Of a DNA stretch of 50,669 nt, positions 7,604 through 46,288 are shown one piece after another. Numbering within the stretch: the first letter of the stretch is position 1; each line of letters begins with the position of its first letter. Made by a program: the position numbers and the translations under genes. The stretch lies in contig JANYLA010000113.1 in NCBI GenBank assembly GCA_025361485.1, positions 1 to 50,669 on the forward strand, written 5' to 3'. The notes below the pieces were generated by a model. That model made no database searches and was not told the origin of the DNA. It was given only the letters and a program-made list of their open reading frames with translations. This stretch comes from Bacteroidales bacterium (GTDB taxonomy: Bacteria; Bacteroidota; Bacteroidia; Bacteroidales; Tenuifilaceae).

Positions 7604-7691
7604 AACCACAAAGGACACAAAGGGATTCACAAAGGTGCTAAAAGGAAAATCCTTTGTAATACTTAGTGTGCACTTCGTGTTCTTAGTGGTT
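7604..7691. repeat. Intergenic palindromic repeat, word CACAAAG
   Basis: Outer arms (7604-7622 and 7673-7691) begin AACCAC and end GTGGTT and pair at 16 of 19 positions. The centre holds a perfect AAAGGA-AAA-TCCTTT stem (7641-7655). The right arm runs into the cyclase gene and supplies two bases of its TAA stop (7690-7692). It can fold as a hairpin at the 3' end of the cyclase transcript. Confidence 0.8.
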
Positions 7692-9489: not shown

Positions 9490-9494
9490 AAATA

Positions 9495-9580
9495 GTTTCA
9501 CGCAAAGTTCGCAAAGGTTTCGCAGAGCGAGCAAAGTCTTTTAATCTTTGCGATTTAACTTTGCGGTCTTTGCGAGATAT
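9495..9580. repeat. Intergenic palindromic repeat, word CGCAAAG
   Basis: The left arm contains CGCAAAGTTCGCAAAG (9501-9516). The right arm contains its complement with a 4-nt insertion (CTTTGCG at 9546-9552 and 9559-9565), followed by another CTTTGCG (9568-9574). It separates the single-domain toroid gene from the cyclase gene and ends 5 nt before the cyclase start codon, leaving no room for a Shine-Dalgarno sequence. Confidence 0.8.
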
Positions 9581-9584
9581 ATTT

Positions 9585-10505
9585 TTATTCCGATAACGCC
9601 CCTAATGCAAGCAATCCATAAAACGTATATTCGATATCGATATCAAAATCCATTTCGGTGGCGCGGAATCCACCATTCAGATATAGATTATCCACAAAGG
9701 TAAGGCAATCGGGTTTGATATCCGTTAAATCGGAATCGATAAAATGCAATGCATACAATGCAACGGCTGTTGAGAGCAAATCTGTAATTGGGGCTCTTTG
9801 CAAAGCGGCGAAATCGCCTTTTCCGCGATAAAAGGACTTCAGCTTAACCTCAACCTCCTTAACCGATTTCCCAAGCACTCTATTTATTACCGCCTCTGCT
9901 GCTGCCAATGAACAGGGCGATTCCTTTGTGTCGCTAAAGTCCTTTATCCTCTTCTTCAATTTCAGGATAGAACGATAATCCTGTAAGTAATATAGTGTTA
10001 ATAATCCAATGAAAAAGGTGTAACCCGAACTAATAGTTTCCTTATTCTTAACCTCAACTTGGTATGCTGAGCCTGTCGAAGCATCAGCCTCTAACTCAAT
10101 CTCAACCTTTTTTCTTAGTTTTTCTGTTGTAGAGTCGAATCCATGAAGTTTTGAGTAGAGTATCGCTCCACAGAACAGATGAATTCTGGTTAATGAATCT
10201 TGGGTTACAGTTTTTTTTACATAATCCTTTAGCGCAGGGAAAATCTCATTAACCGAAAGGGCTTCGGCAACAAAGCATCCAAACATGGAGTAATAGAGGT
10301 CAGTTTTTCCGCCCCTATCGGCAAAACCACCATCTTTGGTAATTGATTTTAGGATATGATTTTTAATCTCCCACTGAATATCAGCATCGAAAATCGAGGT
10401 TGATTTTTGCAGAACCGACTCGATGGATTTTTTCTGATATCGTTTCAGAAATGGCGAGGCGGCCGTTTTATAGGTAATCCTTAAAAATCTTTCCCACAAG
10501 TTCAT
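9585..10505 (-). CDS. Prenyltransferase-like single alpha/alpha-toroid protein
   Basis: A 306-residue protein of the prenyltransferase/squalene-oxidase repeat superfamily, about half the size of the neighbouring cyclase. Diagnostic repeats are DGGFADRGGKTDLYYSMFG near the N-terminus and NGGFRATEMDFDIDIEYTFYGLLALG at the C-terminus. They resemble repeats in the beta subunit of Rab/protein geranylgeranyltransferases and in single-domain bacterial relatives. No DxDD motif is present, and the Asp-Cys-His zinc triad of protein prenyltransferases is not evident, so it may bind a prenyl chain without the standard chemistry, or partner the cyclase. ATG 10505 is preferred over an upstream TTG at 10514; the gene overlaps the end of the fusion gene by 38 nt, implying translational coupling. 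Fold confidence is good, function low. Confidence 0.7.
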   Translation of the reverse strand: MNLWERFLRITYKTAASPFLKRYQKKSIESVLQKSTSIFDADIQWEIKNHILKSITKDGGFADRGGKTDLYYSMFGCFVAEALSVNEIFPALKDYVKKTVTQDSLTRIHLFCGAILYSKLHGFDSTTEKLRKKVEIELEADASTGSAYQVEVKNKETISSGYTFFIGLLTLYYLQDYRSILKLKKRIKDFSDTKESPCSLAAAEAVINRVLGKSVKEVEVKLKSFYRGKGDFAALQRAPITDLLSTAVALYALHFIDSDLTDIKPDCLTFVDNLYLNGGFRATEMDFDIDIEYTFYGLLALGALSE

Positions 10506-12051
10506 GCAGAGCAATTTTTAATCCTAGGTTTTGAAGATTTTCTAGGCTCCTCTTTGCCTCGTTGATATAGCTCATTAGCAGGGCTTCGGTCTCATCCTGA
10601 ATTTTGAAATCTTTGATAAGTTCGAATACCTCAGACGAATTTCCCTTTTTGAATTCGTTATGTAGAGATAATCTTTTATCAGCAGATAATTTTTCAAAGA
10701 CCATCGATAGCAGAATTGAGAATCTTCGAATCTCAATATCTCCATTGTTTCCATGATAATCGCTTAAATCGTCCTTAATTTGATAGGCGATTCCAATATT
10801 ATGGCTGAATTTATCTAGTATTGCAAGAGTCTCTTTGTCTGCACCTCCAGCAGATGCTCCTAGCAAAAGGGAAACCTTGAAAGCCGCTGCAGTCTTATTC
10901 TCAAATATCTTAAGCGTATCCTTTAACGAAGGGATTTCACCGTTAGCAATTGCTGAAAGTTCTGCTCCTTGCCCAACCGATAGCGCTCTATGACCTCGTG
11001 AGGTAATTAGCATACAATCACGAATTGCTTCGGGCGATAATTCGCTTTCGGCAATTAGCCTATAACCCTCACCAATAAGCAAGTCTCCAGTATTTATAGC
11101 AATTGGAATACCATATTCAGCATGGATTGTCTCCTTGCCATAACGGGTATCATCATTATCCTCAATATCGTCGTGAATTAGCGATGCTTTATGGAAGCAC
11201 TCAACCGAGACTGCAATTGAATTTGCAATATCTATGTTAAATGATTTGCAAAAGGCTTCGTAGGTCAACATCGTTAAAAATGGCCTAAAGCGATTGCCTC
11301 CCAATAGAAGCGATTTAAGGGCAATTATTTCAGCCTCATCTCCATTATGGCCAAGTATCTTCGAAAGGGTCTCCTCGTTGAAAATTGAATCGATTTTTGC
11401 CCTTGCTTGGTTGAAATTGAGCAGACGAAAATCTTTTATCTCGCTAATATTATGAATCTCCTCTTTTATCCAATCCAAATCGGCAAGCGTGTCCTTGCAT
11501 CCGCAGGTTAAAAGGGGAATTCCAATACCTGGAATCGAGTATTTACCGATTGAAACAAAGAGTTTTTGCAAAACCTCCATGCAGCCAACACCGATTACCG
11601 CATCGATTTGACCACTTTCGATCATCTGAGCAGTTACAGTTGTGCCTTCGGTAACCAAAACTTCATAGCCTAACTTTTCGGCTTCCTGAATAAAAAATGA
11701 AATATTACATTCCCCGCACTCCCTGCACAGTAGTCCTAGATGGTCGTTCTCGGCTTTGCAAAGATTGCTGTTTCTAAGGCATTGGGGCAGCATCAAGACT
11801 CTGCGATTGTAAGGAATTGCGCCAACTACATTTCTCCATATAGCATTGCCGCAGCAAACCATAGTAAAGGCAAGGTATTTATTTTCCCAACCATTCGCCT
11901 CAACAAGCTTTCCCGCAAACTCAAAAAGCCCCTCGTACGATACGGGTGGAATAACGGTATTTTGCTTAAAATACTCCTCCACTCTACCGCGAATCTCGGC
12001 CCTAGTCTCTTTAACTTCAGGCACTACAAGGTCTAATACTGCTATATTCAT
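10468..12051 (-). CDS. DUF116-polyprenyl diphosphate synthase fusion
   Basis: 527 residues in two parts. Residues 1-215 match DUF116: LMLPQCLRNSNLC, then LGLLCRECGECN, with cysteines 91, 98, 109, 112 and 115 arranged for an Fe-S cluster, plus C67-C68, C157, C183 and C185. Residues about 245-527 are an all-helical trans-prenyl diphosphate synthase: GGNRFRP (251-257), first Asp-rich motif DDIED (294-298), GQGAELS (360-366) and second Asp-rich motif DDLSD (427-431). Both metal-binding motifs are intact, so it should be active. The residues 4 and 5 before the first motif are Ser and Ala, not aromatic, which favours products longer than C15. Only one Arg of the usual RR pair remains (TRYG). Fusion of a putative Fe-S domain to a prenyl synthase is unusual and ties redox chemistry to chain synthesis. 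Confidence 0.88.
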   Translation of the reverse strand: MNIAVLDLVVPEVKETRAEIRGRVEEYFKQNTVIPPVSYEGLFEFAGKLVEANGWENKYLAFTMVCCGNAIWRNVVGAIPYNRRVLMLPQCLRNSNLCKAENDHLGLLCRECGECNISFFIQEAEKLGYEVLVTEGTTVTAQMIESGQIDAVIGVGCMEVLQKLFVSIGKYSIPGIGIPLLTCGCKDTLADLDWIKEEIHNISEIKDFRLLNFNQARAKIDSIFNEETLSKILGHNGDEAEIIALKSLLLGGNRFRPFLTMLTYEAFCKSFNIDIANSIAVSVECFHKASLIHDDIEDNDDTRYGKETIHAEYGIPIAINTGDLLIGEGYRLIAESELSPEAIRDCMLITSRGHRALSVGQGAELSAIANGEIPSLKDTLKIFENKTAAAFKVSLLLGASAGGADKETLAILDKFSHNIGIAYQIKDDLSDYHGNNGDIEIRRFSILLSMVFEKLSADKRLSLHNEFKKGNSSEVFELIKDFKIQDETEALLMSYINEAKRSLENLQNLGLKIALHELVGKIFKDYL

Positions 12052-12057
12052 CTCTCG

Positions 12058-12063
12058 CTCCTT
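12058..12063 (-). promoter_or_regulatory. Strong Shine-Dalgarno sequence before the fusion gene
   Basis: AAGGAG on the minus strand, 6 nt before the ATG at 12051 and directly after the TGA stop of the radical SAM gene. Full consensus sites are uncommon in Bacteroidota, and this one fixes the start of the fusion gene. Confidence 0.7.
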
Positions 12064-13242
12064 TCAACCATAAGCTCCTAAACCAAAAAAGGCACGTTTT
12101 TTCGCCATGCGATAAATCCAGTTTTTCTCTGGAATAACTTTGCATGAACCATGGCTAGGTACAACCTTACCATTGGCAAGCTGCTCGGGCATCCCTTTAC
12201 GATTAGAGGTGTTGATTGCCTGATGGTTTAATGCAAATTCTTGCAACCAATTTGGGTCTTCCATCAGAATGCAGCCCTTAGTTTTTTTCGATATCTCGGT
12301 TTTAAAATCCTTTAGAAAAGTTGAGTTTTCATAGACTGATTTGATATCATCATTGCTGATATTATCGCATGAATATTGGATAACAGGACATGGCTCGATA
12401 TTCCCCGATGGGTTGATATGATGGCTTAGACCCTCTGCTGCTGGGCAGAAAGGATTTCCGTCGGCATCCCAATAGGAATCGATGATTACAATGGGATATT
12501 TTGTTCTGCCATCAACCAAGAAATTCCTTAATCGCTCAATCTCCTCCGAACTCAACGCCAAGTCGTAGCAAGGATTCTCGCCCATTGGGCGGAATATGTA
12601 GTACCACAGATAAACAACCCCTTTATCATGAAGCAGATTGATAAACTCTTCAGATAATGCCATATCAATATTCGATTTGCAAACGCTTATAGCAACACCC
12701 GTAATGAGCTTATGTTTCGATGCTGTTTCAATTGCCTGGATAGTCCGTTGGTAAACACGACTACTTCCTCGTCTAATATCGGCAACCGTTTCGTTGCCCT
12801 CAAAGCTGATAAGCGGGGTTACATTTCCAAGTTTTCTTAACTCTTCAGCAACTTTATCGTTTAGCAAAGTTCCATTTGTAAAAAGTTGAAAGTAGCAATC
12901 GGAGTGGGTTTTGAAAACATCCATCAACGGCTTGTACATCAACGGTTCACCGCCAAGAATACCAAAGAAGTAAGAGCCATATTTTTTACTGCCATTAATT
13001 ATTTTGTTAATGGCAGAAATATCTAGGCTATCAGTTTTTTCGCCCTTGGTAACCCAACAACCTTGGCATTGCAGGTTGCAGTCGTTAGTAACCGAGATAA
13101 ACTGAAAAGCAGGAAACATCTCTCCCCTTTTTTTACGTTTTTGAAACTTGTTAAATCCCATCAACCCTTTCCATCCAAAGGTAAAAATGAATTTGCGCAA
13201 GCACTTGGAATCAGCTCTTAGTATATTTTGTGTTATTGACAT
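12064..13242 (-). CDS. Radical SAM protein with a SPASM-like C-terminus
   Basis: 392 residues. The S-adenosylmethionine Fe-S motif CxxxCxxC is C55-NLQ-C59-QG-C62, within SVTNDCNLQCQGCW. A GGEPL motif follows about 60 residues later, as in the MoaA/PqqE/SPASM group. The C-terminal part has further cysteines (NPFCPAAEG, NIEPCPVIQYSC, GCILMEDP and HGSCKV) suited to auxiliary Fe-S clusters. Length and layout fit SPASM maturases and related enzymes, but no peptide substrate gene is visible; the neighbours are isoprenoid enzymes. It does not look like HpnH, whose cluster motif context differs. It lies 12 nt upstream of the DUF116-prenyl synthase gene with a strong ribosome site between them, so the two are clearly co-expressed. 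The reaction is unknown; modification of the terpenoid is a guess from context. Confidence 0.85.
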   Translation of the reverse strand: MSITQNILRADSKCLRKFIFTFGWKGLMGFNKFQKRKKRGEMFPAFQFISVTNDCNLQCQGCWVTKGEKTDSLDISAINKIINGSKKYGSYFFGILGGEPLMYKPLMDVFKTHSDCYFQLFTNGTLLNDKVAEELRKLGNVTPLISFEGNETVADIRRGSSRVYQRTIQAIETASKHKLITGVAISVCKSNIDMALSEEFINLLHDKGVVYLWYYIFRPMGENPCYDLALSSEEIERLRNFLVDGRTKYPIVIIDSYWDADGNPFCPAAEGLSHHINPSGNIEPCPVIQYSCDNISNDDIKSVYENSTFLKDFKTEISKKTKGCILMEDPNWLQEFALNHQAINTSNRKGMPEQLANGKVVPSHGSCKVIPEKNWIYRMAKKRAFFGLGAYG

Positions 13243-13249
13243 CTATTTA

Positions 13250-13332
13250 AGTGATAAGTGATAAGCGAAAAGTGAAAAATTGGTGTTTTTCATTTTTCAT
13301 TTTTCATTTTTCATTTTTCATTTTTCATTTTC
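13250..13332. repeat. Tandem CATTTTT array with an inverted partner
   Basis: Six near-perfect copies of the 7-mer CATTTTT run from 13291 to 13332. Opposite them, GATAAGTGATAAGCGAAAAGTGAAAAA (13253-13279, shown here only as its word pattern) pairs with the array at its inner end: 12 of 13 bases match between the two arms around a short spacer. The array contains the TGA stop of the ferredoxin gene (13318-13320) and encodes its last few residues. Confidence 0.75.
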
Positions 13333-14085
13333 TTTTGCCCTATCCCTCTCCTCAATCGCTTTTCGCATTGCATCTGCTTTAATTATCGATTGTCGTTTTG
13401 CTTTACGCATTTCAAGTGCTTTGTAAATATCGCTACCTAAAATGGTCTTCAAATCTTGACCTTGACGTTGATGCTCTGCAACCTCATCAATAGAATCAGT
13501 TCCGCTAATCGCTCTGCCCTGTTTGTATTTTGGAAAGATAATTGCCGTTTCGGGACAAATTCGTGCGCAAGCGGGACAATTGTTTTTGCAACCCTTCGGG
13601 TTGACAACCTTTACTGCACCATCAACCTTTTCGTAAACTCCAAACAAACAGAAATCGGCACATTGACCACAAGCAGTACAGCGGGTGTAATCGATAACAG
13701 GATACCACGATGGCCAATTTGACTCGCTAATATGCTCTATTTGCAAGGCAGGCTCATCGTTGCAGAAAGATTCAAGAGTTGATACTAAATCATCCTTTGT
13801 GGTTTCACGAAAGTTGAGGAAAGATACATTTTCGAGGTTCCTTTCAACCCCTGCAAAATCTAATAATTTCTTAACTGCTCTTGGGTGACAGGCAACTACA
13901 AGTGTTGGGTTCTGAGTACTAAAAATTCTTCTAACATCCTGTTTTTCGGAAACGCACAAACCGCATAGGTCGGAGAGTTGAATGGCATCAACCTTTTCTT
14001 TATACAGAAAACTTGATATTGATTCCTTAATTTCTTGACTTACAATCTCGCCACCACAATCACAGTAAATAATTTTTTTATCCAT
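13318..14085 (-). CDS. HdrA-like Fe-S protein with two 4Fe-4S ferredoxin clusters
   Basis: 255 residues. The N-terminal part (about 1-110) resembles the N-terminal domain of heterodisulfide reductase HdrA: YCDCGGEI with C8 and C10, LCGLC with C41 and C44, and [13 protein letters not shown] with C66. The FAD domain of HdrA is missing. Residues about 130-185 hold two ferredoxin clusters, with cysteines 136-139-142-146 and 166-170-173-177. It probably delivers low-potential electrons to the radical SAM and DUF116 proteins encoded next. It is the first gene of the cluster, separated from the radical SAM gene by 75 nt that hold the repeat array. The final KENEK and the stop codon are written in the repeat, so the original C-terminus may have been replaced. 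No convincing promoter was found upstream. Confidence 0.8.
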
Positions 14086-26823: not shown

Positions 26824-29166
26824 TTACAAATCGGTAATAATTTTAGTTATTCCAAGCACTCCGATAATACCATCTTTTTCATCAATAAGCGGAAGAATTG
26901 TCACAGCAATTTTATGCTCAATCCCATCGTTCATGGTTTCGAGGTAAACTTTATTAATTATTGGTGTTTTGGTTCTAATTACATCCTGTTCGTCGCGATA
27001 GGTTCTTGCGGCTTGCTCTCTTCCCAAAAGATCGAAATCCGATAATCCGACCACCTCTTCAGGGCTCGATGCATTGAATTGGCTGAGCATGGATTCGCTT
27101 ACATGAACGTATTTTCCACTCGTATCTTTTTGAAAGATAAAATCGGGAGAGTTTTTGAGCAAAGCATCAAGGAGCGATTTATCCTCACGGAGTTCGGCCT
27201 GAACCTGTTCCTGTTCATGTCGCTTGCGCTCCATCTCCTCCTGAGTAGCTTGCAGCTCCTCCATGTTCTGACGCATTTCTTCCTCTTGTGCCGACATCTC
27301 TTCTGCCTGCTGCTGCGATTTTGCAAGTAGCTCGGCAGTGCGGATATTAATGCGAACGCTCGATATTGTAGCAGCAATACTTGTTGCTACCTTCTCGATA
27401 AATTCAATATGATGCTTTTCGTAAATCTTAAAGGTTGCCATCTCAATAACACCGAGTATCTCATCGTTAATCTTTAGTGGAACGAGTAGGAGACATCGAG
27501 GATTTTCTTTTCCCAAACCGGATGTAATGCTGATGTAGTCCTTTGGGATATCAACCATAAAAATCGATTTTCCTTCAGTAAAACATCTTCCAACCAATCC
27601 TTCGCCAACGGCTACATTTTTTTCGAGGAATTTGCGTCTATCGTAAGCATAACAGGCTGTCATCTCAACAACAGGATTGTCCTTATCATTATCATTCAAT
27701 ATAAAAACACCACCTTGTATTGAAGTTGTATAGCTAACTAGATTTCGGATGATATTATAGGACAGCTCGGCAAGGTTATCGTTATTCTGACGCAGAATAT
27801 CACCAAACATTGCTATTCCTTTTGTTGCCCAATTCTGTTTCTCCTCTTCATTCTTCCTTTCAATCTCACTTTCGCGAGCATGCTTTAAACTTTTCTGCAT
27901 CTCAAGTAGGGATTTACCAAGAGTATCCTTTTCCCCGAGCAATTCAAATTGAGCATCAAGATTGCCTTTGCCAATTTCACGAGCGAAATTTTCAGTAACA
28001 TTTAGCCCATCAATTACTTTACTGACAGATTTAGCCACAGCCTCAATCTCATCGCCACTGGTAACAAAAACCTTTTTCGATTTATCAATATCTCCCTGCG
28101 CAAGGTTTTGTAAAAGATCCGTAGTTCTTTGAATAGGCTCCGTTATTGAACGCGCAATCAGCCATATTACAACGCCTAAAATGATTAATCCCAATATGGC
28201 AACAATTAATACGCTAAATAAAGATGAACGTGCCTCGCTCATTATTACGTTAACAGGTATTGATAGCCGAATTGACCAAGGCGAGGGTGTTTGTCCAACC
28301 TGAATTGGGGTATAAATAACAAGCTGTTTTTCACCACCATTACTTGTATAAAAAGTGATGCCTTTTCCGTTTTTTATTTTATCGGATATTTGATTCTCAA
28401 TATCCTCTTCGGGAGCTATTTCCTTAAGAGTTTTTTTAACAAAATCAATATTCGTGTGGGCGATTATAGTTCCATTGTTCGAAAGGAGCGAGACGGTAGT
28501 ATTTGGGAAGGGCTTCGTTTGATCAATAATTTTCTGAAATTTACCTAGTTCAAGATCCACTCCACCTAACCCTTGAAATGTTCCATTCCGATGAACAGGA
28601 ACGCTAACTGTAGTAGCAAGGTAATCCTTTCCTTCAAGCTGAAAGACATACGGATCGAGAACCAATTCACTGTTGAGCGATTTTGAGTGGTAGTATGGAC
28701 TCGTGGTTATATCGCCAGTTACATTTTTGTGTTGAACCTCAATGAATGGAACTCCATTTTTAAGGAATGCCGTAAAAGATCTTCTTCCATAATTTTGAGT
28801 ATAACCCTTTTTTATCAATGAATACTCAAGAGTGCACCAAACAGTCATGTATCTTGGATTTTCTTTCGCTTGATTTTTAAGAGTTGTTACGAAAATAGAA
28901 TCTAACTTTTCAGTATCGTATTTGTTATAAGTTTCTAATGAATTTGCTAAAGAACGGGCAAAACCCAGGTCAAATTCAAGGTCTGCTCTAACAAGGTTAG
29001 CAGTTTTTTGGGCTTCTCCTTGGGCAATCGAGATCGCATTATTTAGCGCCATCTTATTTAATCGATAAGCTACAAATGCACCAACTACTACAAGAACAGA
29101 AATGGTAGTTATTAAAACATAAACCAGCATCTTTGTTCTGATCATATTCTTAAACGCTATCTTCAT
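26824..29166 (-). CDS. Cache-HAMP-GAF-coiled coil-PAS sensor protein without an output domain
   Basis: 780 residues. TM1 is at about 11-33. A periplasmic double-Cache-type ligand domain follows to about 310, then TM2 (about 314-338) and HAMP (about 338-392). A GAF domain lies at about 465-605, a coiled coil with AEEMSAQEEEMRQNMEEL near residue 622, and a C-terminal PAS domain at about 665-780. No histidine kinase, cyclase, GGDEF or MCP signalling tip is present, so output must go through partner proteins or the coiled coil. The protein at 35537-37849 is a paralogue with the same order and the same coiled-coil motif. The TPR-SpoIIE phosphatase is divergently transcribed 238 nt away and is a candidate partner. 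Confidence 0.82.
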   Translation of the reverse strand: MKIAFKNMIRTKMLVYVLITTISVLVVVGAFVAYRLNKMALNNAISIAQGEAQKTANLVRADLEFDLGFARSLANSLETYNKYDTEKLDSIFVTTLKNQAKENPRYMTVWCTLEYSLIKKGYTQNYGRRSFTAFLKNGVPFIEVQHKNVTGDITTSPYYHSKSLNSELVLDPYVFQLEGKDYLATTVSVPVHRNGTFQGLGGVDLELGKFQKIIDQTKPFPNTTVSLLSNNGTIIAHTNIDFVKKTLKEIAPEEDIENQISDKIKNGKGITFYTSNGGEKQLVIYTPIQVGQTPSPWSIRLSIPVNVIMSEARSSLFSVLIVAILGLIILGVVIWLIARSITEPIQRTTDLLQNLAQGDIDKSKKVFVTSGDEIEAVAKSVSKVIDGLNVTENFAREIGKGNLDAQFELLGEKDTLGKSLLEMQKSLKHARESEIERKNEEEKQNWATKGIAMFGDILRQNNDNLAELSYNIIRNLVSYTTSIQGGVFILNDNDKDNPVVEMTACYAYDRRKFLEKNVAVGEGLVGRCFTEGKSIFMVDIPKDYISITSGLGKENPRCLLLVPLKINDEILGVIEMATFKIYEKHHIEFIEKVATSIAATISSVRINIRTAELLAKSQQQAEEMSAQEEEMRQNMEELQATQEEMERKRHEQEQVQAELREDKSLLDALLKNSPDFIFQKDTSGKYVHVSESMLSQFNASSPEEVVGLSDFDLLGREQAARTYRDEQDVIRTKTPIINKVYLETMNDGIEHKIAVTILPLIDEKDGIIGVLGITKIITDL

Positions 29167-35536: not shown

Positions 35537-37849
35537 CTACTTACTAATATTGTTGGCAATTTTTATAATCTTATAAACCAATCCCTGTTCATCTATTAAT
35601 GGTGTGTATGTTTCATCAAAGGTGTACGAAATATCGTCGATGGTGAATTTATTTGTAACCCGCTTTAAAACACCATTACGGAGGTCATTCCAGAACTTAT
35701 CGTATTCCTTTTGCTGCTCAACATTAAACTCCATTTTATAGGAATGATGTGTTCCAACCAATTTCTCGCGAGGTGTGCGTAAAAGGTTTATGTAGGCATC
35801 GTTAATGTAAGTGATGTAACCGTTTGTATCGTACTCAATCAGAAACGATGCGTTGTTAATAGCATCAATATAGTTCTGCATCTCGCTCGTTTTTCGTGCG
35901 GCTTCCTCCTGAGTTGCCTGAAGCTCCTCCATATTTTGGCGCATCTCCTCCTCCTGTGCCGACATCTCCTCTGCTTGCTGTTGTGTTTTAGCTAGCAGCT
36001 GAGAGGTTCTTATGCTTGTTCGAACCGATGTTAGGGTGGATGCTATGCTTTGAGCTAACTTCTCGACAAACTCTATCTGATACTGTTCAATTTCTGTAAA
36101 AGAGGCAAGTTCCAATATTCCGAGCACTTTCTCTTCGATTAGCAACGGAACAATGAGTAAGCATCGAGGACGAGCTTCTCCGAGTCCTGAGGTTAATTCT
36201 ATGTAATTTTCAGGTATCTCTGTAAGATATATGGTTTGTTTTTCAAGAGCGCATGTTCCAACTAACCCTTCACCAAGCAAAATTTGCTTTTTAATAAACT
36301 TCTGGCGACTAAAGGCATAAGTAGCAAGAAGTTCAAAATGAATACTTTCAGTTTCATCATCGTTGTAAATAAATAAGCCTCCTTGATTGGCATTAATGTA
36401 TTGAACAACATTTTTGATAATCTCAGCCGATAATACATCAAGTTTATCGTTATTCTGTCTAAGAATATCACTGAATTTAGCTAACCCCTCATTGGTCCAC
36501 TGACGTTTATTATCTTCGATTTTACGAATATTATCTTCTATTTGAGCCGATTTAAGACTATCACGCATATGAATGAGGGATTTACCCAAAACATCTGCCT
36601 CGCTTAAAAGCACCAATTCAGTTTCTAAATTTCCTTGACCTATGTTGTAGGCAAAGTTTGATTTTTGGGTAAGTCCATCAATTGAAGTATTCAATGCGTC
36701 TGCCATTTGACCAATTTCATCGCTATGGCCATATTCCAACATAATATCATTACTAATATAACCCGATGCTATTTTCTTTAGAGATTTAGTAATGATTTTT
36801 ATAGGGGTTATAATATATGTTAGTGAAGAGAAGAAGATAAGAGATGAAAGAGCAAGCAACCCAATTATTCCAACTATAATTGAGATAATAAAATTATTAT
36901 TTGCCTCCTCAAGCATGCTTGATTTAGGCACAACAACGACTAAAGACCATGGTCGAACTGTTTTACCAACGATAATCGGATTAATAGTGAAATATGATGT
37001 GACCCCGTTTATATCATTATCAAAAAAGGTGGAAGATTCAGCATTCACGATTTTATCTGTGATTCCATTCCGGTTAAAAAGTGTTTCATAGACATCAGTT
37101 GATCTGGTGCCAATTTTATCAATATTAGGATGAGCAACGTATTGAAGATCATTTGCAATTAAAAACGCATAGCTCCCTTTAATGGGTCTAATCTGATTCA
37201 CAATTGGGTGATATCGATTAAGAGAGATATCAACACCAGTAACACCAATGAAAGTACCATTATCTATTATTGGTACTATAAGACTTGTCATAAGCTGCTG
37301 GTCTTTGACATTTCCAGAGTAGCTGTAGAAATATGGATTTTCTAAGCTTTCAACTTTATCACGTTTAATTCTGCCATACTCTAACGCATCGCCGGTTAAG
37401 TCTTTTAGCGAAGCGTTATGTTTTATTGTGCCATTTTCTCGCCAGTATTCACAAACGTATCTGCCATATTCTTTTTTATAATTAGGATCTATTTTGTTAA
37501 GCTCCCAGCTATCCCATATTGATATGAATTGTGAGTTTTCATTGATAATTGTCTCATACATCTTGGCAAATAGTTCTTTCCATTGCTTTTCGGGCATCGT
37601 TTTATACGTGAGAACTGCTTGAGATAAGGTTCTTATGGTAAATAGATCTTCTTCGAGTAAAAATTTGATATCCAATGCACTCTTCTCGGCATAAGTATTT
37701 GTCAAGGCAATCGCTTGATTCAGGGCATGTTTTTTTGAATTAAGGCTTATGTAACCTATGGCAATAGCATAAATGATAATAGAAGCACCGATTACTAGAA
37801 CTAAGATTTTTTTCTGAAGAGAAAATTGTCTAACGAAGATAAACTTCAT
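35537..37849 (-). CDS. Second Cache-HAMP-GAF-coiled coil-PAS sensor protein without an output domain
   Basis: 770 residues with the same plan as the protein at 26824-29166: TM1 (about 13-33), a periplasmic Cache-type domain, TM2 (about 320-345), HAMP, GAF (about 470-605), a coiled coil containing AEEMSAQEEEMRQNMEEL near residue 621, and a C-terminal PAS domain ending in VYKIIKIANNISK. The periplasmic domain differs most from its paralogue, so the two probably sense different ligands and share an output partner. No catalytic output domain is present. It follows the USP gene on the same strand, but a terminator lies between them, so they are probably separate units. Confidence 0.82.
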   Translation of the reverse strand: MKFIFVRQFSLQKKILVLVIGASIIIYAIAIGYISLNSKKHALNQAIALTNTYAEKSALDIKFLLEEDLFTIRTLSQAVLTYKTMPEKQWKELFAKMYETIINENSQFISIWDSWELNKIDPNYKKEYGRYVCEYWRENGTIKHNASLKDLTGDALEYGRIKRDKVESLENPYFYSYSGNVKDQQLMTSLIVPIIDNGTFIGVTGVDISLNRYHPIVNQIRPIKGSYAFLIANDLQYVAHPNIDKIGTRSTDVYETLFNRNGITDKIVNAESSTFFDNDINGVTSYFTINPIIVGKTVRPWSLVVVVPKSSMLEEANNNFIISIIVGIIGLLALSSLIFFSSLTYIITPIKIITKSLKKIASGYISNDIMLEYGHSDEIGQMADALNTSIDGLTQKSNFAYNIGQGNLETELVLLSEADVLGKSLIHMRDSLKSAQIEDNIRKIEDNKRQWTNEGLAKFSDILRQNNDKLDVLSAEIIKNVVQYINANQGGLFIYNDDETESIHFELLATYAFSRQKFIKKQILLGEGLVGTCALEKQTIYLTEIPENYIELTSGLGEARPRCLLIVPLLIEEKVLGILELASFTEIEQYQIEFVEKLAQSIASTLTSVRTSIRTSQLLAKTQQQAEEMSAQEEEMRQNMEELQATQEEAARKTSEMQNYIDAINNASFLIEYDTNGYITYINDAYINLLRTPREKLVGTHHSYKMEFNVEQQKEYDKFWNDLRNGVLKRVTNKFTIDDISYTFDETYTPLIDEQGLVYKIIKIANNISK

Positions 37850-37942: not shown

Positions 37943-38788
37943 TTAATTGAAACTCTGATATTTACGAGTTCTTGGGTTAACGCACATTACAGGTACTGTT
38001 GTTGTTCCTTGCTTGTTGCCCGGAACATACACATCGTACTTGTCGGCCATTATCAGGATGAGATCAGAGTCTATATTCTGAGCAAATTTGAATACTTCAT
38101 CACGAAAATCGCTTTTCTTCTTTGCTGTTTTAATCCCGTAAATAATCTTATTACCATCAAGCATCTTTTTAGTAAAGTAGATGTTGTTGGCCATGTGTTT
38201 CTTTTTTCCTTCGTCGTAAATAAATGGCTTAATAAGGTTGATATTACATTTATAGTATTTCGAAAGGTAAATTATCCAATGTACGGTTTCCTTATACTTC
38301 CTGTCGTGATCTAGCGGTACAACAATTTCAATGTAATGGCTGTGAGCTGGAGGTCCGTCAATAATAATAAAGGGTACGTTAAAATTCTTAATCACCATAT
38401 TCTTAAGGAAGTTTGGTGCTTGATAAGCGTTTTTTCCGTAGTTGTAAATTTTAGATGATACTACAAGATTAATATCTAAATCTCCTGTAGTAATAAGATC
38501 TTTAACAATTTTACGAGGGTACCCTTCAAGAACTAGTGTTTGTGGTCTAAAGTTGTATTTTGTATAAATATCTTCAACAACTGCTTCTAACTTCTTCCTT
38601 GCATCGTGAATTTCCTTTTGACTACCCTTTTGGTTAAGATATTGATATATAAGAGTGCGGGGTAGGATATGCAAAAGCATAATTTCGTTTTCAGCAGTAG
38701 CAGCTAACTGAATTGCATGGAGCAACGCATTATTAGAGCCTTCTGTGAAGTCCCATGGAACAAGTACTACCTTCTTAACACCATCCAT
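37943..38788 (-). CDS. Tandem-domain universal stress protein, degenerate nucleotide motif
   Basis: 281 residues made of two USP-like domains. The first starts with KKVVLVPWDFTEGSNNALLHA, the usual beta1-alpha1 block. The ATP-binding signature GxxGx9GS/T expected near the end of the first domain is missing; the region reads SSKIYNYGKNAYQAPNFLKN. The second domain (about 150-281, IEIVVPLDHDRKYKETVHWI) is more divergent. It is encoded 89 nt downstream of the cyclase-HD sensor on the same strand, with a terminator after it, so the two form a unit. A paralogue lies on the other side of the cyclase gene. Some USPs bind cAMP, which makes this placement suggestive. Confidence 0.8.
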   Translation of the reverse strand: MDGVKKVVLVPWDFTEGSNNALLHAIQLAATAENEIMLLHILPRTLIYQYLNQKGSQKEIHDARKKLEAVVEDIYTKYNFRPQTLVLEGYPRKIVKDLITTGDLDINLVVSSKIYNYGKNAYQAPNFLKNMVIKNFNVPFIIIDGPPAHSHYIEIVVPLDHDRKYKETVHWIIYLSKYYKCNINLIKPFIYDEGKKKHMANNIYFTKKMLDGNKIIYGIKTAKKKSDFRDEVFKFAQNIDSDLILIMADKYDVYVPGNKQGTTTVPVMCVNPRTRKYQSFN

Positions 38789-38877: not shown

Positions 38878-41800
38878 TTATAATTTATTTTTCTCAATCC
38901 AATTTTTAATGTTCTCGAGCTGGCTGTTTTTATTGACATTTCGGAGCCTTCGTGCTGTATTTGTAAAATACTGATGTTTTTCAATAAATTTGATTTGAAG
39001 CTCATTCCAATCCTGTATAGTACCAATTCGACCATGTTCATGCAGCTCTTTATAGAGCATATTTGACACTGGAATAAAATCGGTTCGTCCGAGATAATCC
39101 AAATCGGCATCGCACATTATTGCTTCCAGTAAATTTTTTGGCTTAGGAGGAAGTTTTGTTATCATTATTAAATTCGATATTATTTCAATCTGTCTTTCGG
39201 AGTACTGGTATTCAGGGAGAATTTCCCTTGCCAGTTTTACCCCCATTTCCTCATGCGTATCGTAGTCGATAAGATGTCCTGCATCATGGAAAAGCGCGGC
39301 AGTTTGTAGCAATAGCTGCTCTTCCTGACTAACATCTTCCGATCTACCGATCAGCTCAACTTGAGTGTAAACGTCAACGGTATGCTTTAAATTGTGATAG
39401 TATAAATTTTGCGGAAGCCCTTTTTCTAATTTTTCAAGGATGAACTCCTCTAAATCCCCGAATCGTAAGAATTGAAGTTGAACTTGGAACTCGTTGTTGG
39501 GTCTGTATAAATCTAGGTTATTAGAAAGTGCCGGTTTAATGCCATCGACAAAATACATCTCAATATCACCTTTATTCTTGATTGGCATTTTACCTCGGTA
39601 GGTGCAAATAAAGTAATCCTGAACAAAAATATGGGTATTTCCTGAGATGTTAATCCTTCCTACCTCGCCTGACGACTCCATACGGCTTGCCGTGTTTACC
39701 GTTGTTCCCCATATATCATACGATAGTTTGTTTCGACCTACTACTCCTGCAATTACGGGTCCTGTATCGATGCCAATTCGTAGGTCCCAGATATCCTGAC
39801 CCGGATTGTGCTCAAGGTTAATTTCACGCATGAAGGATAGCATTTCAAGCGCTGCAAGCACTACTTCAACTGGATTCGTTCTGTTTTTATGGGGTATTCC
39901 TCCGGCGCACATGTATGCATCGCCAATGGTTTTAATCTTCTCTATTCGGTATTTATCCACTACAGAGTCGAAGTAAAGGAAGAATTTATCGAGCTGGTCG
40001 ATTAGATTTTCAGGATTTAGCTCATCGGTTATTTTTGTGAATCCTTGAATATCTGAGAATAGTACGGTTGCCATGTTGAACTTCTGCGTGAGTACTTTTC
40101 CGGTTTCTTTTAGCTCGGCTGCGGTTTCTCTTGGTAAAACTCTTGCAAGTAAATTATCAGTTTTTTCTTTCTCTTTAACCAGTTCGTCGGTTCGTCGGTT
40201 GATAATGCTTTCGAGCTTAAAGCGCTCACGAGAAAAATAAAAGATTCGCCAACGGAAAATGGTATATATTATCAATAAAACAAGGATAATAAATGCGATA
40301 AGCGAAGATCGAGTTTGAATGAAATTTGGGGTTACTGTGATGTTTACTTTTAATTCGGCCGATTCAATTCCGATAGCATCCCGTGCTTTAAAGGTATACG
40401 AATGATTTCCAGGCTTCAACCTATCAAACAGTATTGTTGAAATGGGCGTCCTTTCCGACCATTTTAAATCATTATTATCGGGTTTAAATGAGTATGATAA
40501 ATTATTCCAACCAGTTGTTCCAATTCCGCTTAGGTTGATCTCCGCTGAACGACCCTGCTTTATTCTAATATGGTTTGTTTGGGAGTAAATATTGCTTAGA
40601 ATGGTTGAGACACCATTATTATTTGTGCATGCAGAAAAGAGTATTAAACTAGGTTGATGGGCTTTAATGCGTTTTAAGTATTCAATAGATATTTTTATTA
40701 AACCACTATTGGTTGATAACCATGCAGTAGAATCAGAATCAAGGTAAACCTCATTCACTTGAAAGGAGTTTTCAATAGCGAAATCTGCATAATTATGAAT
40801 GCGATTAAAGACAAATGCTTGAAAATTTGGATGAATACTGCTGAAAATGCCGGTAATGGGTTGATTTGAAAATGTTTTTCCAATTTTTGATCGGTATCCG
40901 GTCTTATTCTTAATTACTATCCTTTCGTTTACAAGGCTTAGAGTATCTCCATTAATAAAAAACTGAGGGCTAAATATTTTCGATTCAATAGGGTTTTCCT
41001 CGGAAAATTTATCGAATTCAGCATTGGTGGTAAACCATTTATCGGTTGATGTATTTAAAAGTAATGTACTATCGGTAGAATAGAAATTGGTGAAGAGGAG
41101 GTTATTATTAATAGATAGTTTTTTTAGAGAAAACGGACGATCTAAGGTTGTGTAATAGACTCCTTGTGAGTTCAGAAATAATGCTTTAGGTTGCTTTGAG
41201 TCAACGATGCACGATTTTTGAAATTCTCCCATTTCAGGAGTAATTCTAACAACTCGATTATCTGAAATATGAAAAAGACCATTTGTGTTTATCGCAAATA
41301 GGTTGTTATTATGTAAGTAGAGGTCTGTAAAGCTACCTTTCTGAAGGATTGTAAAGGAATTGCATCTTGCTAAATCGCTTGCAACATATAGCGCGAATGA
41401 TGTTGCAATAAAAAGTTTTTTATCTAAAACTATTGTCGAGCGTACAGTTCCTTTTAGATTACTGTTGGCGTTGAAAATTTCAACCATTAATGGGTTGATG
41501 AATCGAAAGATTTGAGTGGAGGTTATTGCAAAAAAGTTGATGTCGTCAGATGAGCAAATATTTATAGGCATTTCAGAATTATTATCTCCAAAAGCGGAAA
41601 TGTTCTTGATTGGTTTTCCTTGATTATTAAACATTAGCAAGCGGTTGCTTGATGTTGAAATAAAGAAGTAAGAACCGGCAGTCGAAATCTTTGTAATCAC
41701 CTCATCAGTATTTATGTAGTGACGAATTTCGTTAAAAATGTTATCCTTATTTCCCTTTATACAGTAGAAGCCTTTCTCAATTGAATGAAAAGTAAGGCCG

Positions 41801-42336
41801 TTTGAGGTTGAATAAATAGTGATTTCTTGTTTTGAAGAATCCATCGCAACTGCCTTATCAATGTACTTCCATAGTTTTGAACCTGTTGAAAAATTGATGT
41901 TCTTGGAATCGTCAAAGCCGATACTTGTGATTTGATACTTAAAATGATTTACTACAGGGTCAATCAATTGATTTGCATCGTATCCACCTGATGTGTTTTG
42001 CGTTAATAATGCAAGATAATTATATCCTGCAATTACTATTTTTTCACTTCCATCGTAGGCAACTACTGGTTTGCCGGTTACCTTAATCTGTTGATAATTT
42101 ACTCCATCATAAATAAACACATCATGATCGTTTGTAATAAAAAGCCTATTACCTTTATCGGCTAGAATAGAAGTATAGTAACAAGGAGTGGCTAACGGAA
42201 TTTTTGGAATCTCGAAAAATAAAGGTTGTGCAAAGCCAATTGAAGAATCATTAAAGCCGATAGGTTTAGTCGTATTTGCTATAGAACATAGCAAAAAAAA
42301 GGGGAATGAATATTTAAAAAATCTCGAAAAATTCAT
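38878..42336 (-). CDS. Propeller-sensor adenylate cyclase fused to a phosphodiesterase-like HD domain
   Basis: 1152 residues. A signal sequence or first TM is at 1-21. A large periplasmic beta-propeller-like region follows to about 590, then a Y_Y_Y-type domain (about 590-665), TM (about 675-697), a short coiled coil, and a class III cyclase (about 755-925). Metal aspartates D762 and D806, the adenine-selecting pair K802 and D874, and transition-state N881 and R885 are all present with mammalian spacing, so it should make cAMP. The C-terminal HD domain (about 965-1130) has YHNxxH (980-985), H1017-D1018-xx-H1021 and D1076. The YHNxxHxxDV block recalls class I cyclic-nucleotide phosphodiesterases. 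The protein may therefore both make and hydrolyse cAMP. It forms a unit with the USP gene downstream. Confidence 0.85.
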   Translation of the reverse strand: MNFSRFFKYSFPFFLLCSIANTTKPIGFNDSSIGFAQPLFFEIPKIPLATPCYYTSILADKGNRLFITNDHDVFIYDGVNYQQIKVTGKPVVAYDGSEKIVIAGYNYLALLTQNTSGGYDANQLIDPVVNHFKYQITSIGFDDSKNINFSTGSKLWKYIDKAVAMDSSKQEITIYSTSNGLTFHSIEKGFYCIKGNKDNIFNEIRHYINTDEVITKISTAGSYFFISTSSNRLLMFNNQGKPIKNISAFGDNNSEMPINICSSDDINFFAITSTQIFRFINPLMVEIFNANSNLKGTVRSTIVLDKKLFIATSFALYVASDLARCNSFTILQKGSFTDLYLHNNNLFAINTNGLFHISDNRVVRITPEMGEFQKSCIVDSKQPKALFLNSQGVYYTTLDRPFSLKKLSINNNLLFTNFYSTDSTLLLNTSTDKWFTTNAEFDKFSEENPIESKIFSPQFFINGDTLSLVNERIVIKNKTGYRSKIGKTFSNQPITGIFSSIHPNFQAFVFNRIHNYADFAIENSFQVNEVYLDSDSTAWLSTNSGLIKISIEYLKRIKAHQPSLILFSACTNNNGVSTILSNIYSQTNHIRIKQGRSAEINLSGIGTTGWNNLSYSFKPDNNDLKWSERTPISTILFDRLKPGNHSYTFKARDAIGIESAELKVNITVTPNFIQTRSSLIAFIILVLLIIYTIFRWRIFYFSRERFKLESIINRRTDELVKEKEKTDNLLARVLPRETAAELKETGKVLTQKFNMATVLFSDIQGFTKITDELNPENLIDQLDKFFLYFDSVVDKYRIEKIKTIGDAYMCAGGIPHKNRTNPVEVVLAALEMLSFMREINLEHNPGQDIWDLRIGIDTGPVIAGVVGRNKLSYDIWGTTVNTASRMESSGEVGRINISGNTHIFVQDYFICTYRGKMPIKNKGDIEMYFVDGIKPALSNNLDLYRPNNEFQVQLQFLRFGDLEEFILEKLEKGLPQNLYYHNLKHTVDVYTQVELIGRSEDVSQEEQLLLQTAALFHDAGHLIDYDTHEEMGVKLAREILPEYQYSERQIEIISNLIMITKLPPKPKNLLEAIMCDADLDYLGRTDFIPVSNMLYKELHEHGRIGTIQDWNELQIKFIEKHQYFTNTARRLRNVNKNSQLENIKNWIEKNKL

Positions 42337-42521: not shown

Positions 42522-43319
42522 ATGAATAGCTCGAAGAAAACAATATTAGTCCCTACAGACTTTACAGAGGTTGCCGATTATGCATTACAGCATGCAGTTC
42601 GCGTTTCATCGGTGGTTGGCGAAAATATAACCTTATTACATATAGTTGATAGTACAGAAAAAATTGCCGAAGCAAAGGAGCGAATGGATCGATTAGCACA
42701 GGAATCGAATGATAAATACAAAATCCTTCCCTCAACTATTGTCATCCAAGGAGATATTTTTGTTGATATTGCTAGGTTTGCAACAGAGTTAAACTCAAGC
42801 ATGGTGATCATGGGTTCGCATCGTATAAAAAGCGAATCAACCCTGAACGATTCCATTGCGCTTAGGGTTATTACCAGTTCTAAAGTTCCATTTATAACAA
42901 TTCAAGAGCCGCCTATTAATAGACGTTACGATGAAATCATCTTTCCAGTTGATTTTACAGCAGAGAACGTCGAAAAGCATAGCTGGATTTCATACTTCTG
43001 CGATTACTATGTCTCGAGGTTTCATCTGATAAAGCCAAATGTTACCGATCCCAAACTGCTTGCAAAGGTTGATATGAATATGGCTTCGGCTCGTCGGTAT
43101 CTCGACGAGAAAGGCGCTCGATACTATGTTTATACCGTTATGGGAAATAAGCCTTACGCAGAGGAAGTTCTTGAGATTGCGGCCAATATCAGAGCCGATC
43201 TTATCGTAATTATGACTACGAAAGTTGGCAATAAATCAACTTATATCGTTGAACCCCACGAGCAGTATATTATCTCCAATGCTAGTTATATTCCTGTTAT
43301 GAGCATTAATCCCCTATAA
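42522..43319 (+). CDS. Tandem-domain universal stress protein, paralogue of the USP at 37943-38788
   Basis: 265 residues with two USP domains. The first begins KKTILVPTDFTEVADYALQHA. The phosphate-binding GxxGx9GS/T motif is degenerate (GSHRIKSESTLNDSIALRVI). The second domain starts near residue 138 with YDEIIFPVDFTAENVEKHSW. It is transcribed divergently from the cyclase-HD gene across a 185-nt gap and is followed 12 nt later by rdgB, so it probably leads that operon. Flanking of the cyclase by two USPs of the same architecture suggests local duplication or a functional set. Confidence 0.82.
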   Translation: MNSSKKTILVPTDFTEVADYALQHAVRVSSVVGENITLLHIVDSTEKIAEAKERMDRLAQESNDKYKILPSTIVIQGDIFVDIARFATELNSSMVIMGSHRIKSESTLNDSIALRVITSSKVPFITIQEPPINRRYDEIIFPVDFTAENVEKHSWISYFCDYYVSRFHLIKPNVTDPKLLAKVDMNMASARRYLDEKGARYYVYTVMGNKPYAEEVLEIAANIRADLIVIMTTKVGNKSTYIVEPHEQYIISNASYIPVMSINPL

Positions 43320-43922: not shown

Positions 43923-43993
43923 ATTATCCCCATTTCCCTATAATAATTACTCCAATTCGCTAGTTTAAGGGTTACATTCTAAAATCACTATTG

Positions 43994-46288
43994 ATGAATA
44001 GAATCATTTTTTTGATACTTATCTTTTTTACCCAAACTGTTTTTGCCCAGGTTAAAGTTGGAAAATGGCGCGATCATTTCTCGTACAATAATTGCATTGC
44101 CGTTTGCAAAGGGAACGGAAAAATTTATGGGGCAACATCTACTGGTGTTTTTTGGTATAATTTAATCGATGGCGAGATAGGTAAGATTAGCCGTGTAAAT
44201 GGGCTAACCGATATTAAAATAAGTACAATAGAGTATTCAGAGGTAAATAAAGTCCTTGCCGTTGGATATCAAGATGGTAATATTGATTTTGTGTTCAAGG
44301 ATCGAATTCTTAACATGCCCCAAATCAAGGAAAAAGCGATGCAGGGGAGCAAGAGAATCAATGGCTTTACATTTAATAGCAGTATTATTTTTGTATCAAC
44401 CGATTTTGGAGTCGTAGCTGTCGATATTGCACGTGAAGAGATTAAGGATACCTATTATATTGGAGACTTAGGATCAACAATAAGGGTTAATCGTACCGTA
44501 ATTCAGGGAAACGATATTTTTGCAGCAACCGAAAGGGGTTTACTAAAAGCAGATATAAATGATCCGTTGCTTATTCAGTACCAACGATGGGTTCAACAGG
44601 ATGGCTTTAGTAATTCATTGGCAGAGTGCACCGATATTGCAGTTTTTGGACAGAATTTAATTGCTGTTGAGGGAAATCCAGAAGGACAAAAAGATATAGT
44701 TTGGGTAATTAATGGTTCAAATTGGAGCGAGCTGGGTCGACCGTATAATACTGTTTCGCATGTTAGAGCAGAATTTTATAAGTTAATTATTACATCTAAA
44801 GAGGGAATATCTGCATACGTTACAATAGGATCGATTCCGGTAAACTATACAAAGTATAATTTTACATGGCTTTTTGAACCAGACATGGCAATACCCCTTG
44901 AATCGGGTAAAATTGCAATAGCCGATCACTTTTCGGGAATTGTTTTTGGCGATGCTGGAGGCTTTAACCCTATTCATCCCAACGGACCAACAAACAATAA
45001 TGCTTTTTCGATTGGTGTAAGTAGCGAGCAGGTTATTATCGCCACAGGGGGTTATGATGCTGCTTATGGAAACCTATGGAACCCTCTATCGTTCCATCGA
45101 TTTGCTGACCAGCAGTGGAGCACATTCGAAGAATATGACGACAGGGATGCAATCCGAGTACTTTTCAACCCGACCAATCCGAGCGAGTTTTATATTGCTA
45201 GCTGGGGATCAGGCGTTTTTCAGTTTAGGAATTCTGAAATGATTAATCATTATAAGCCCACTAATAGCACTCTTCAAACAATTTACCCGAATGAACCTTA
45301 TTGTAGAATCGGCGGAGTTGCATTGGATAATAGCGGAAATTTATGGGCAGCAAATGCGTTGGTTCCAAACCCTGTTTCGGTTCGTAAGACTGATGGGACA
45401 TGGCATTCATTCCCATACGCAGGCGTAATAAACTCCGATCGCATATCAAATCTATTTTGTTCGCCATCAGGTCAACTTTGGTTTACACTGCCAGGCGGAG
45501 AAGGATTCTTTGTACTTGATCCTGGAAAAAATATAGAATCGTCTTCCGATGACTTATACCGGAGATTTAGATTAAGTGATAGGAACGGGAATAGCCTGCC
45601 AAGCAATATTTTTTCAACGGCAATCGATAACGATGGATATTTGTGGATTGGTACCAGCGAAGGAGTACTTATCAGCTATAACCCCGAAGATGTTATTAAT
45701 GCTTCGAAGTTTACGGTGCAAAGGGTAAAAATTCCCGATGTGGTTCAGGGATTAGCCGCATATCTTTTACAAACCGAAATGGTTACCTCGATTACGGTTG
45801 ATGGAGGAAATCGGAAATGGTTTGGAACTAGTAAATCGGGTGTTTTTTTGCAATCATCTGATGGTTCTAAGGAATTACAGCATTTTAATACCCAGAATAG
45901 CCCATTGCCCTCGAACAATATTGTCGATATTAAGATTCACCCAACCACAGGAGAAGTTTTTATTGCAACGGAACTGGGTTTAATTGCTTACCACGGCGAT
46001 GCGACTGCCTCAGGAGATAAGTTTGGAAAGGTTTACGCATTCCCAAATCCTGTTAAACCCGACTTTAATGGGCTTATATCAATCGTTGGGCTTGTTGAGA
46101 ATACAACAGTTAAAATTACTGATATTAGCGGTAACTTGGTTTATGAAACGCTGTCGCAGGGGGGACAAGCAACTTGGGATGGAAAAAACTTCAATGGTCA
46201 TAAAGTTTCTACAGGTGTTTATCTAATTTTCTGTTCTGACAGTAAAGGCAAGGAGACCGCCGTAAGTAAACTGCTTTTTATTAAGTAG
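43994..46288 (+). CDS. porZ: Type IX secretion system protein PorZ
   Basis: 764 residues starting at ATG 43994, one codon after an in-frame TTG. A signal peptide (about 1-19, ending VFAQ) precedes two beta-propeller domains built from two-component-regulator-type repeats (for example GKIYGATSTGVFWYN and DNDGYLWIGTSEGVLISYN). A C-terminal CTD-like beta-sandwich covers about 680-764 (YAFPNPVKPDFNGLISI and STGVYLIF). This matches PorZ, the attachment-complex member that hands A-LPS to the sortase PorU in Porphyromonas. It provides the secretion context for the M6 protease in this window. RecO follows after 5 nt. Confidence 0.85.
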   Translation: MNRIIFLILIFFTQTVFAQVKVGKWRDHFSYNNCIAVCKGNGKIYGATSTGVFWYNLIDGEIGKISRVNGLTDIKISTIEYSEVNKVLAVGYQDGNIDFVFKDRILNMPQIKEKAMQGSKRINGFTFNSSIIFVSTDFGVVAVDIAREEIKDTYYIGDLGSTIRVNRTVIQGNDIFAATERGLLKADINDPLLIQYQRWVQQDGFSNSLAECTDIAVFGQNLIAVEGNPEGQKDIVWVINGSNWSELGRPYNTVSHVRAEFYKLIITSKEGISAYVTIGSIPVNYTKYNFTWLFEPDMAIPLESGKIAIADHFSGIVFGDAGGFNPIHPNGPTNNNAFSIGVSSEQVIIATGGYDAAYGNLWNPLSFHRFADQQWSTFEEYDDRDAIRVLFNPTNPSEFYIASWGSGVFQFRNSEMINHYKPTNSTLQTIYPNEPYCRIGGVALDNSGNLWAANALVPNPVSVRKTDGTWHSFPYAGVINSDRISNLFCSPSGQLWFTLPGGEGFFVLDPGKNIESSSDDLYRRFRLSDRNGNSLPSNIFSTAIDNDGYLWIGTSEGVLISYNPEDVINASKFTVQRVKIPDVVQGLAAYLLQTEMVTSITVDGGNRKWFGTSKSGVFLQSSDGSKELQHFNTQNSPLPSNNIVDIKIHPTTGEVFIATELGLIAYHGDATASGDKFGKVYAFPNPVKPDFNGLISIVGLVENTTVKITDISGNLVYETLSQGGQATWDGKNFNGHKVSTGVYLIFCSDSKGKETAVSKLLFIK

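Follow-up and report, generated by a model that had tools for sequence, protein, structure and literature searches.

A periplasmic-propeller receptor of Bacteroidales that joins an adenylate cyclase to a compact HD domain, a probable cyclic-nucleotide phosphodiesterase

The window analyzed here, a stretch of 50,669 nucleotides from a bacterium of the Bacteroidales (family Tenuifilaceae; contig JANYLA010000113.1 of assembly GCA_025361485.1), contains at 38878-42336 on the minus strand an ATG-started open reading frame (ORF P0001) of 1152 aa in which internal stops are absent. The parts of the encoded receptor and its two neighbours, both universal stress (Usp) protein genes, are as follows:

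38878..42336, minus strand: propeller-TM-adenylate cyclase-HD receptor, 1152 aa (ORF, Pfam and residue check)
42271..42336, minus strand: predicted signal peptide, residues ~1-22 (hydrophobic sequence and modelled helix 3-22)
40325..42264, minus strand: periplasmic double-propeller and Y_Y_Y-like sensor, residues ~25-670 (beta-rich model, PDB matches, relative L034)
40138..40311, minus strand: TM helix continuing into a coiled-coil signalling helix, residues ~676-733 (single modelled helix 676-733)
39544..40089, minus strand: class III adenylate cyclase domain, residues 750-931 (Pfam, key residues, PDB sequence matches)
38881..39453, minus strand: HD domain of a cyclase-linked family, residues 962-1152 (Pfam, alignment, model, PDB fold matches)
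37943..38788, minus strand: Usp protein, next gene after an 89 bp gap (Pfam Usp, 30.4 bits)
42522..43319, plus strand: Usp protein, divergent upstream neighbour (Pfam Usp, 72 bits)

Elsewhere in the window, a PorZ-like propeller protein carrying a type IX secretion tail is encoded at 43991-46288 (plus strand) beside rdgB-like and RecO-like genes, and many relatives again have this block close to the cyclase-HD gene. Two related sensor proteins are encoded at 26824-29166 and 35537-37849 (minus strand), the second with Cache, HAMP and GAF domains. In the nearest relatives (L113-L115) the receptor gene is likewise flanked by Usp genes, and a homologue of the 35537-37849 sensor comes after the Usp gene. 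A likely isoprenoid cluster occupies 7690-14085 (minus strand) and includes a squalene-hopene-cyclase-like protein, a DUF116-polyprenyl synthetase fusion, and radical SAM and 4Fe-4S proteins.

The full-length AlphaFold model of the receptor is of moderate quality (mean pLDDT 75.8) and contains repeated beta strands up to residue 668 followed by one helix at 676-733, the hydrophobic stretch of the TM segment covering about 676-698. Within the sensor region pLDDT lies for the most part between 65 and 90 and drops to about 30 at 448-502. When the model was compared with the PDB by Foldseek, the periplasmic domains of BT4663, BT4673 and BT3049 ranked first (4a2l, 3ott and 3v9f), with TM-scores to the target of 0.3-0.6. 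The receptor's own periplasmic part gave no Pfam match to Reg_prop, and Y_Y_Y stayed below its cut-off; a phmmer search of the class sample with the sensor part of P0001 as query yielded no relative at E<1e-5, so the evidence for a propeller was drawn from relatives and structure. In a relative of the same layout (L034) both Reg_prop and Y_Y_Y score above the Pfam cut-off, which, together with the fold matches, bears out the periplasmic propeller sensor that had been proposed from the sequence-only reading. In its periplasmic double propeller with a Y_Y_Y-like part and in its single TM helix, the receptor resembles hybrid two-component sensors of the BT4663 type, whereas the output of those sensors is a histidine kinase with a response regulator and that of the receptor is a cyclase with an HD domain.

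The cyclase domain was matched by the Pfam Guanylate_cyc profile over residues 750-931 (E 2.6e-54, 184 bits against a cut-off of 21.9). The metal-binding aspartates (D762 and D806), the transition-state residues (N881 and R885) and the adenine-selecting pair (K802 and D874) are all present, exactly at the six positions that had been read from the letters. A pair of the K802/D874 type is an established signature of ATP selection in class III cyclases, and its presence therefore makes adenylate cyclase the right call. The nearest solved cyclases by sequence in a PDB search are AC8, AC5 and AC9, with Rv1625c further down. The PycC models of PADLOC match the domain weakly (E 8e-16), and the K802/D874 pair points to ATP. 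By profile and residues, the domain is a class III adenylate cyclase.

The C-terminal domain was matched by the Pfam HD profile over residues 983-1078 (E 2.1e-8, 34.9 bits against a cut-off of 22), and belongs to a Bacteroidota family that carries no functional name. It contains YHNLKH at 980-985, HDAGH at 1017-1021 and a later Asp, D1078, within DADLDYLG, so that the metal motif of the HD superfamily (H...HD...D) is provided by H985, H1017, D1018 and D1078. In a 77-row alignment of the family, the invariant positions include H985, H1017, D1018, T1060, D1076, H1121 and T1125, and H981, E1029, D1078, W1110 and Q1114 are nearly invariant. YHNxxH, HD and the later Asp, which the first reading had regarded as phosphodiesterase (PDE)-like, were thus found; its HDxxH signature was dropped, as most members have F in the column of H1021 and a subset has H or Q there.

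PDEase_I (PF00233) gave a sub-threshold partial match over 980-1021 only (E 0.021, 15 bits against a cut-off of 24.8), and the Pfam profile did not assign the HD domain to class I PDEs. Neither a GYP motif nor the paired His of HD-GYP/PgpH-type PDEs was found in residues 960-1152. The HDIG domain scored 18.6 bits against a cut-off of 27.6, and among NCBIfam models nothing exceeded its threshold on this domain, the HDIG and Phn-HD matches being sub-threshold. The model of the 191-residue domain is confident (pLDDT 97.9), all-helical, and matches both HD and PDE folds: ADP-bound YpgQ is the top PDB match, followed by 2pq7 and by numerous class I PDEs, among them PDE2, PDE4 and PDE5 (E-values of the PDEs 1e-3 to 1e-2), so the fold alone cannot choose between a pyrophosphohydrolase and a PDE. 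A profile search against the PDB is led by the HD hydrolases 2pq7, YedJ and BH2835, while PDE9A appears at E about 0.02 and covers the first third of the domain. In a viral structure library, phage HD proteins match the model at TMq up to 0.81; phage HD sequences form very long branches in the family tree.

Class I PDEs have the metal motif H...HD...D, in which the second metal is held by the HD Asp, and use a Gln for base selection (PMC8177086); in PDE4D2 the purine is bound by Gln369 and Phe372 (PMC13095499). The order H...H...HD...D is kept in the window HD and is followed by a conserved Q1114-x-x-F1117, which resembles Gln369/Phe372 of PDE4 in order and spacing. The HD fold is likewise found in the mammalian enzymes PDE2, PDE4, PDE5 and PDE9, as are YHNxxH, HD, a later Asp and Gln-x-x-Phe in this order. 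However, class I PDEs have 300 aa or more, whereas the window HD has about 190 aa and no significant full-length sequence match to them, and its C-terminal part differs from theirs in the conserved W1110, H1121, T1125, R1132 and K1136. Q1114 is present in 39/41 cyclase-fused rows and 13/13 cyclase-adjacent rows of the alignment and in 0/12 rows of a sister clade fused to PycTM, in which N, T or S stands at this position. The split between Q and N/T/S is a lead for base specificity, as judged from the alignment.

The partners of the family point to cyclic nucleotides. A search with the HD domain matched 184 of 295 Bacteroidia genomes. Genome lists were compared by a Fisher test, shared ancestry being uncorrected, and the HD family and a cyclase occurred together in 170 genomes, HD only in 14, cyclase only in 9 and neither in 102. 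The source genome has two cyclases, one HD of the cyclase-linked family and 11 cNMP-binding proteins. Among unfused HD copies, a cyclase gene lies no more than 5 kb away in 17/51, in most cases as the immediate neighbour (P about 3e-12, a rough binomial bound with a deliberately high chance rate), and three HD copies are fused to cNMP_binding and then to SpoIIE or HisKA. Stand-alone HD proteins of about 200 aa also occur, as do fusions to YitT membrane domains and TPRs; four loci (L083, L091, L092 and L095) combine HD with YitT_membrane and DUF2179, each with a nearby cyclase gene. The Pycsar effector PycTM (PF18967) is the fusion partner of a sister HD clade that is found widely in the other classes of Bacteroidota; HD-PycTM ORFs of 400-440 aa were seen in L208, L210, L211, L212, L213, L219 and L221, and in L221 the gene adjoins a divergent cyclase gene. 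These HD-PycTM proteins are without a fused cyclase. Canonical class I PDEs coexisting in the phylum were considered as well and rejected, since PDEase_I scored above its cut-off in 0/247 genomes.

The tree of HD sequences places the window HD within a starred clade; of its 18 rows, 17 are cyclase-fused. The cyclase-fused label requires seven changes on the tree, at least three of them being forced by starred branches, so that fusion or fission has occurred repeatedly. Grouping with an unrelated HD clade, named beforehand as an outcome that would speak against the PDE assignment, was not observed: the window HD groups with HDs that are fused or adjacent to cyclases or fused to cNMP-binding domains, and a cyclic-nucleotide substrate is therefore favoured. 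YpgQ-type HD proteins are relatives outside the cyclase-linked clade. The family is associated with both makers and receptors of cyclic nucleotides.

The same domain order was sought in other genomes, as the sequence-only reading had suggested, and 110 cyclase-HD fusions were found, the order cyclase then HD being frequent; the loci came from the Bacteroidia genomes and the 80 best named genome contigs. Both sites are intact in 70 of them, and all 30 propeller-type fusions keep both the cyclase and the HD site. The cyclase site is altered with an intact HD in 34, and the reverse is seen in six. The HD residues are kept at least as strictly as those of the cyclase, because the metal and acid residues of HD are retained in 104/110 fusions. 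For five of the six altered-HD proteins, a second cyclase-HD gene whose HD is intact lies a few kb away, and the genome of the sixth (G251) has a further HD copy elsewhere (L036). In L130, L153, L155, L167 and L176, two cyclase-HD genes lie a few kb from each other, one having an intact HD and the other an intact cyclase and an altered HD. In every propeller receptor the helical linker between cyclase and HD is kept, with P946 and N947 invariant.

Proximity of a Usp gene to the HD gene is conserved, both where the HD is cyclase-fused and where it is not. Of the 76 class-sample loci, 20 have a Usp gene no more than 400 bp away from the HD gene; in 15 of these the HD gene stands alone (15/51 of the unfused copies), and the probability of this adjacency by chance is below 1e-19 even at a high per-genome Usp count. 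The mycobacterial Usp protein Rv1636 is reported to bind cAMP (PMC11107214), and the Usp proteins beside the receptor are therefore candidate partners.

Taken from its partners in hundreds of related genomes, the HD domain very probably breaks down cyclic nucleotides. The explanation that we consider probable for the whole protein is a receptor in which a propeller signals to a dimeric adenylate cyclase that is fused to an HD cyclic-nucleotide PDE, so that one protein would make cAMP and convert it to AMP. We infer the PDE activity, cAMP as the HD substrate, the roles of individual HD residues and the coupling of the two activities. The periplasmic propeller would pass its signal via one TM helix and the coiled coil to the dimeric cyclase, and the cAMP made there would be turned into AMP by the fused HD. 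The HD family would work like a shortened class I PDE, in which H985, H1017, D1018 and D1078 may hold the metals, H981 may protonate the leaving group, and Q1114 with F1117 may hold the adenine. As one protein would both make cAMP and convert it to AMP, ligand binding might shift the balance of making and breaking, or the HD might keep the cAMP signal local. With a cyclase and a probable PDE in one receptor, one sensor could control both sides of the signal.

The nearest described analogue is the streptophyte protein CAPE (PMC5159850, PMC8115329), known from liverworts among others, whose name stands for combined adenylyl cyclase with PDE. Like the receptor, CAPE joins a class III adenylate cyclase and an HD-superfamily PDE in one membrane protein, both presumably cytosolic. 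However, CAPE has an N-terminal class I PDE and a C-terminal cyclase, whereas in the receptor the cyclase precedes the HD, which has about 190 aa and lies outside PDEase_I; the receptor also differs in having a propeller sensor and in being bacterial. A maker and a breaker of c-di-GMP are likewise fused in GGDEF-EAL proteins, one activity often being lost, but their domains are unrelated to those of the receptor and the messenger is c-di-GMP instead of cAMP. The open-access literature searched contained no description of a bacterial protein in which a cyclase is joined to an HD or PDE domain.

A variant of the preferred explanation, to which we give somewhat less than an even chance, holds that both activities exist but that the HD constitutively acts as a local sink, the propeller controlling the cyclase only, with no reciprocal switching. 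The existence of the stand-alone HD proteins indicates that the domain probably needs no receptor for activity, and CAPE has been proposed to keep cAMP local (PMC8115329); the conserved helical linker would allow coupling, which does not make it evidence of coupling.

It is distinctly less probable that the HD is a phosphohydrolase acting on another ester (ATP/dNTP, 5'-AMP or pyrophosphate) and tuning the cyclase via removal of substrate or product. YpgQ, the ADP-bound top fold match, is a (d)NTP pyrophosphohydrolase (PMC8177086), and YpgQ/BH2835 are the best or near-best PDB matches to the window HD by fold and profile, with an identity of about 18-19%; a plant relative of these proteins, BDPDE1, has been reported to hydrolyze cAMP at nmol/min/mg rates (PMC8431786). 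The fold ranking, the confinement of the PDE sequence match to the first third of the domain, the futile cycle that a fused maker and breaker would create unless regulated, and the fusions to YitT and TPR domains, which are not known to be linked to cNMP, all count against the PDE assignment. COG4339-type action on another phosphate ester had been named as an alternative in the sequence-only reading. A Comamonas protein annotated NMDAR2C, which we take to be of the COG4339 type, has YHxxxH, HDxxY, NE, TK.P, DxDLxxLG and an F-L...T end in common with the window HD. However, the protein is without W1110, Q1114 and H1121 of the family and scores 49 bits with the family model, where most members exceed 200; this one available COG4339-type sequence falls outside the cyclase-linked clade, but on a very long branch. 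Action on another ester also leaves unexplained the cNMP_binding fusions in proteins without a cyclase, the PycTM fusions, and the way in which the split at position 1114 tracks the partner type.

That the HD mainly binds cNMP, regulates the cyclase through product feedback and catalyses little or nothing in vivo is very unlikely: the domain does occur in places where a ligand-sensing module would be expected (fused to cyclase, SpoIIE, HisKA and PycTM) and several copies have lost metal residues beside an intact cyclase, but the metal and acid residues are nearly always kept and all six altered-HD cases have another intact HD in the same locus or genome.

The preferred explanation of a receptor that both makes and breaks cAMP may be part of a broader picture, in which this compact HD PDE family is the main cyclic-nucleotide off-switch of Bacteroidota, residue 1114 reads the base, the propeller receptors are truly bifunctional cAMP switches and Usp proteins belong to the pathway; as a whole, this picture is tentative and rather unlikely. 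The Bacteroidota sample has many class III cyclases and cNMP-binding proteins, canonical class I PDEs being absent, and no description of a route of cyclic-nucleotide removal in the phylum was found in the open-access literature searched. Such a family, compact and linked to makers, to receptors and to an effector of the Pycsar type, would close this gap, and bacteria would then have something comparable to plant CAPE and to the GGDEF-EAL proteins. If the picture is true, Gln1114 would mark cAMP in the cyclase-linked clade and Asn, Thr or Ser another nucleotide in the PycTM-linked clade, so that a single residue would give a direct handle on base specificity. The family also matters for Pycsar defence, where the threshold of PycTM could be set by its fused HD.
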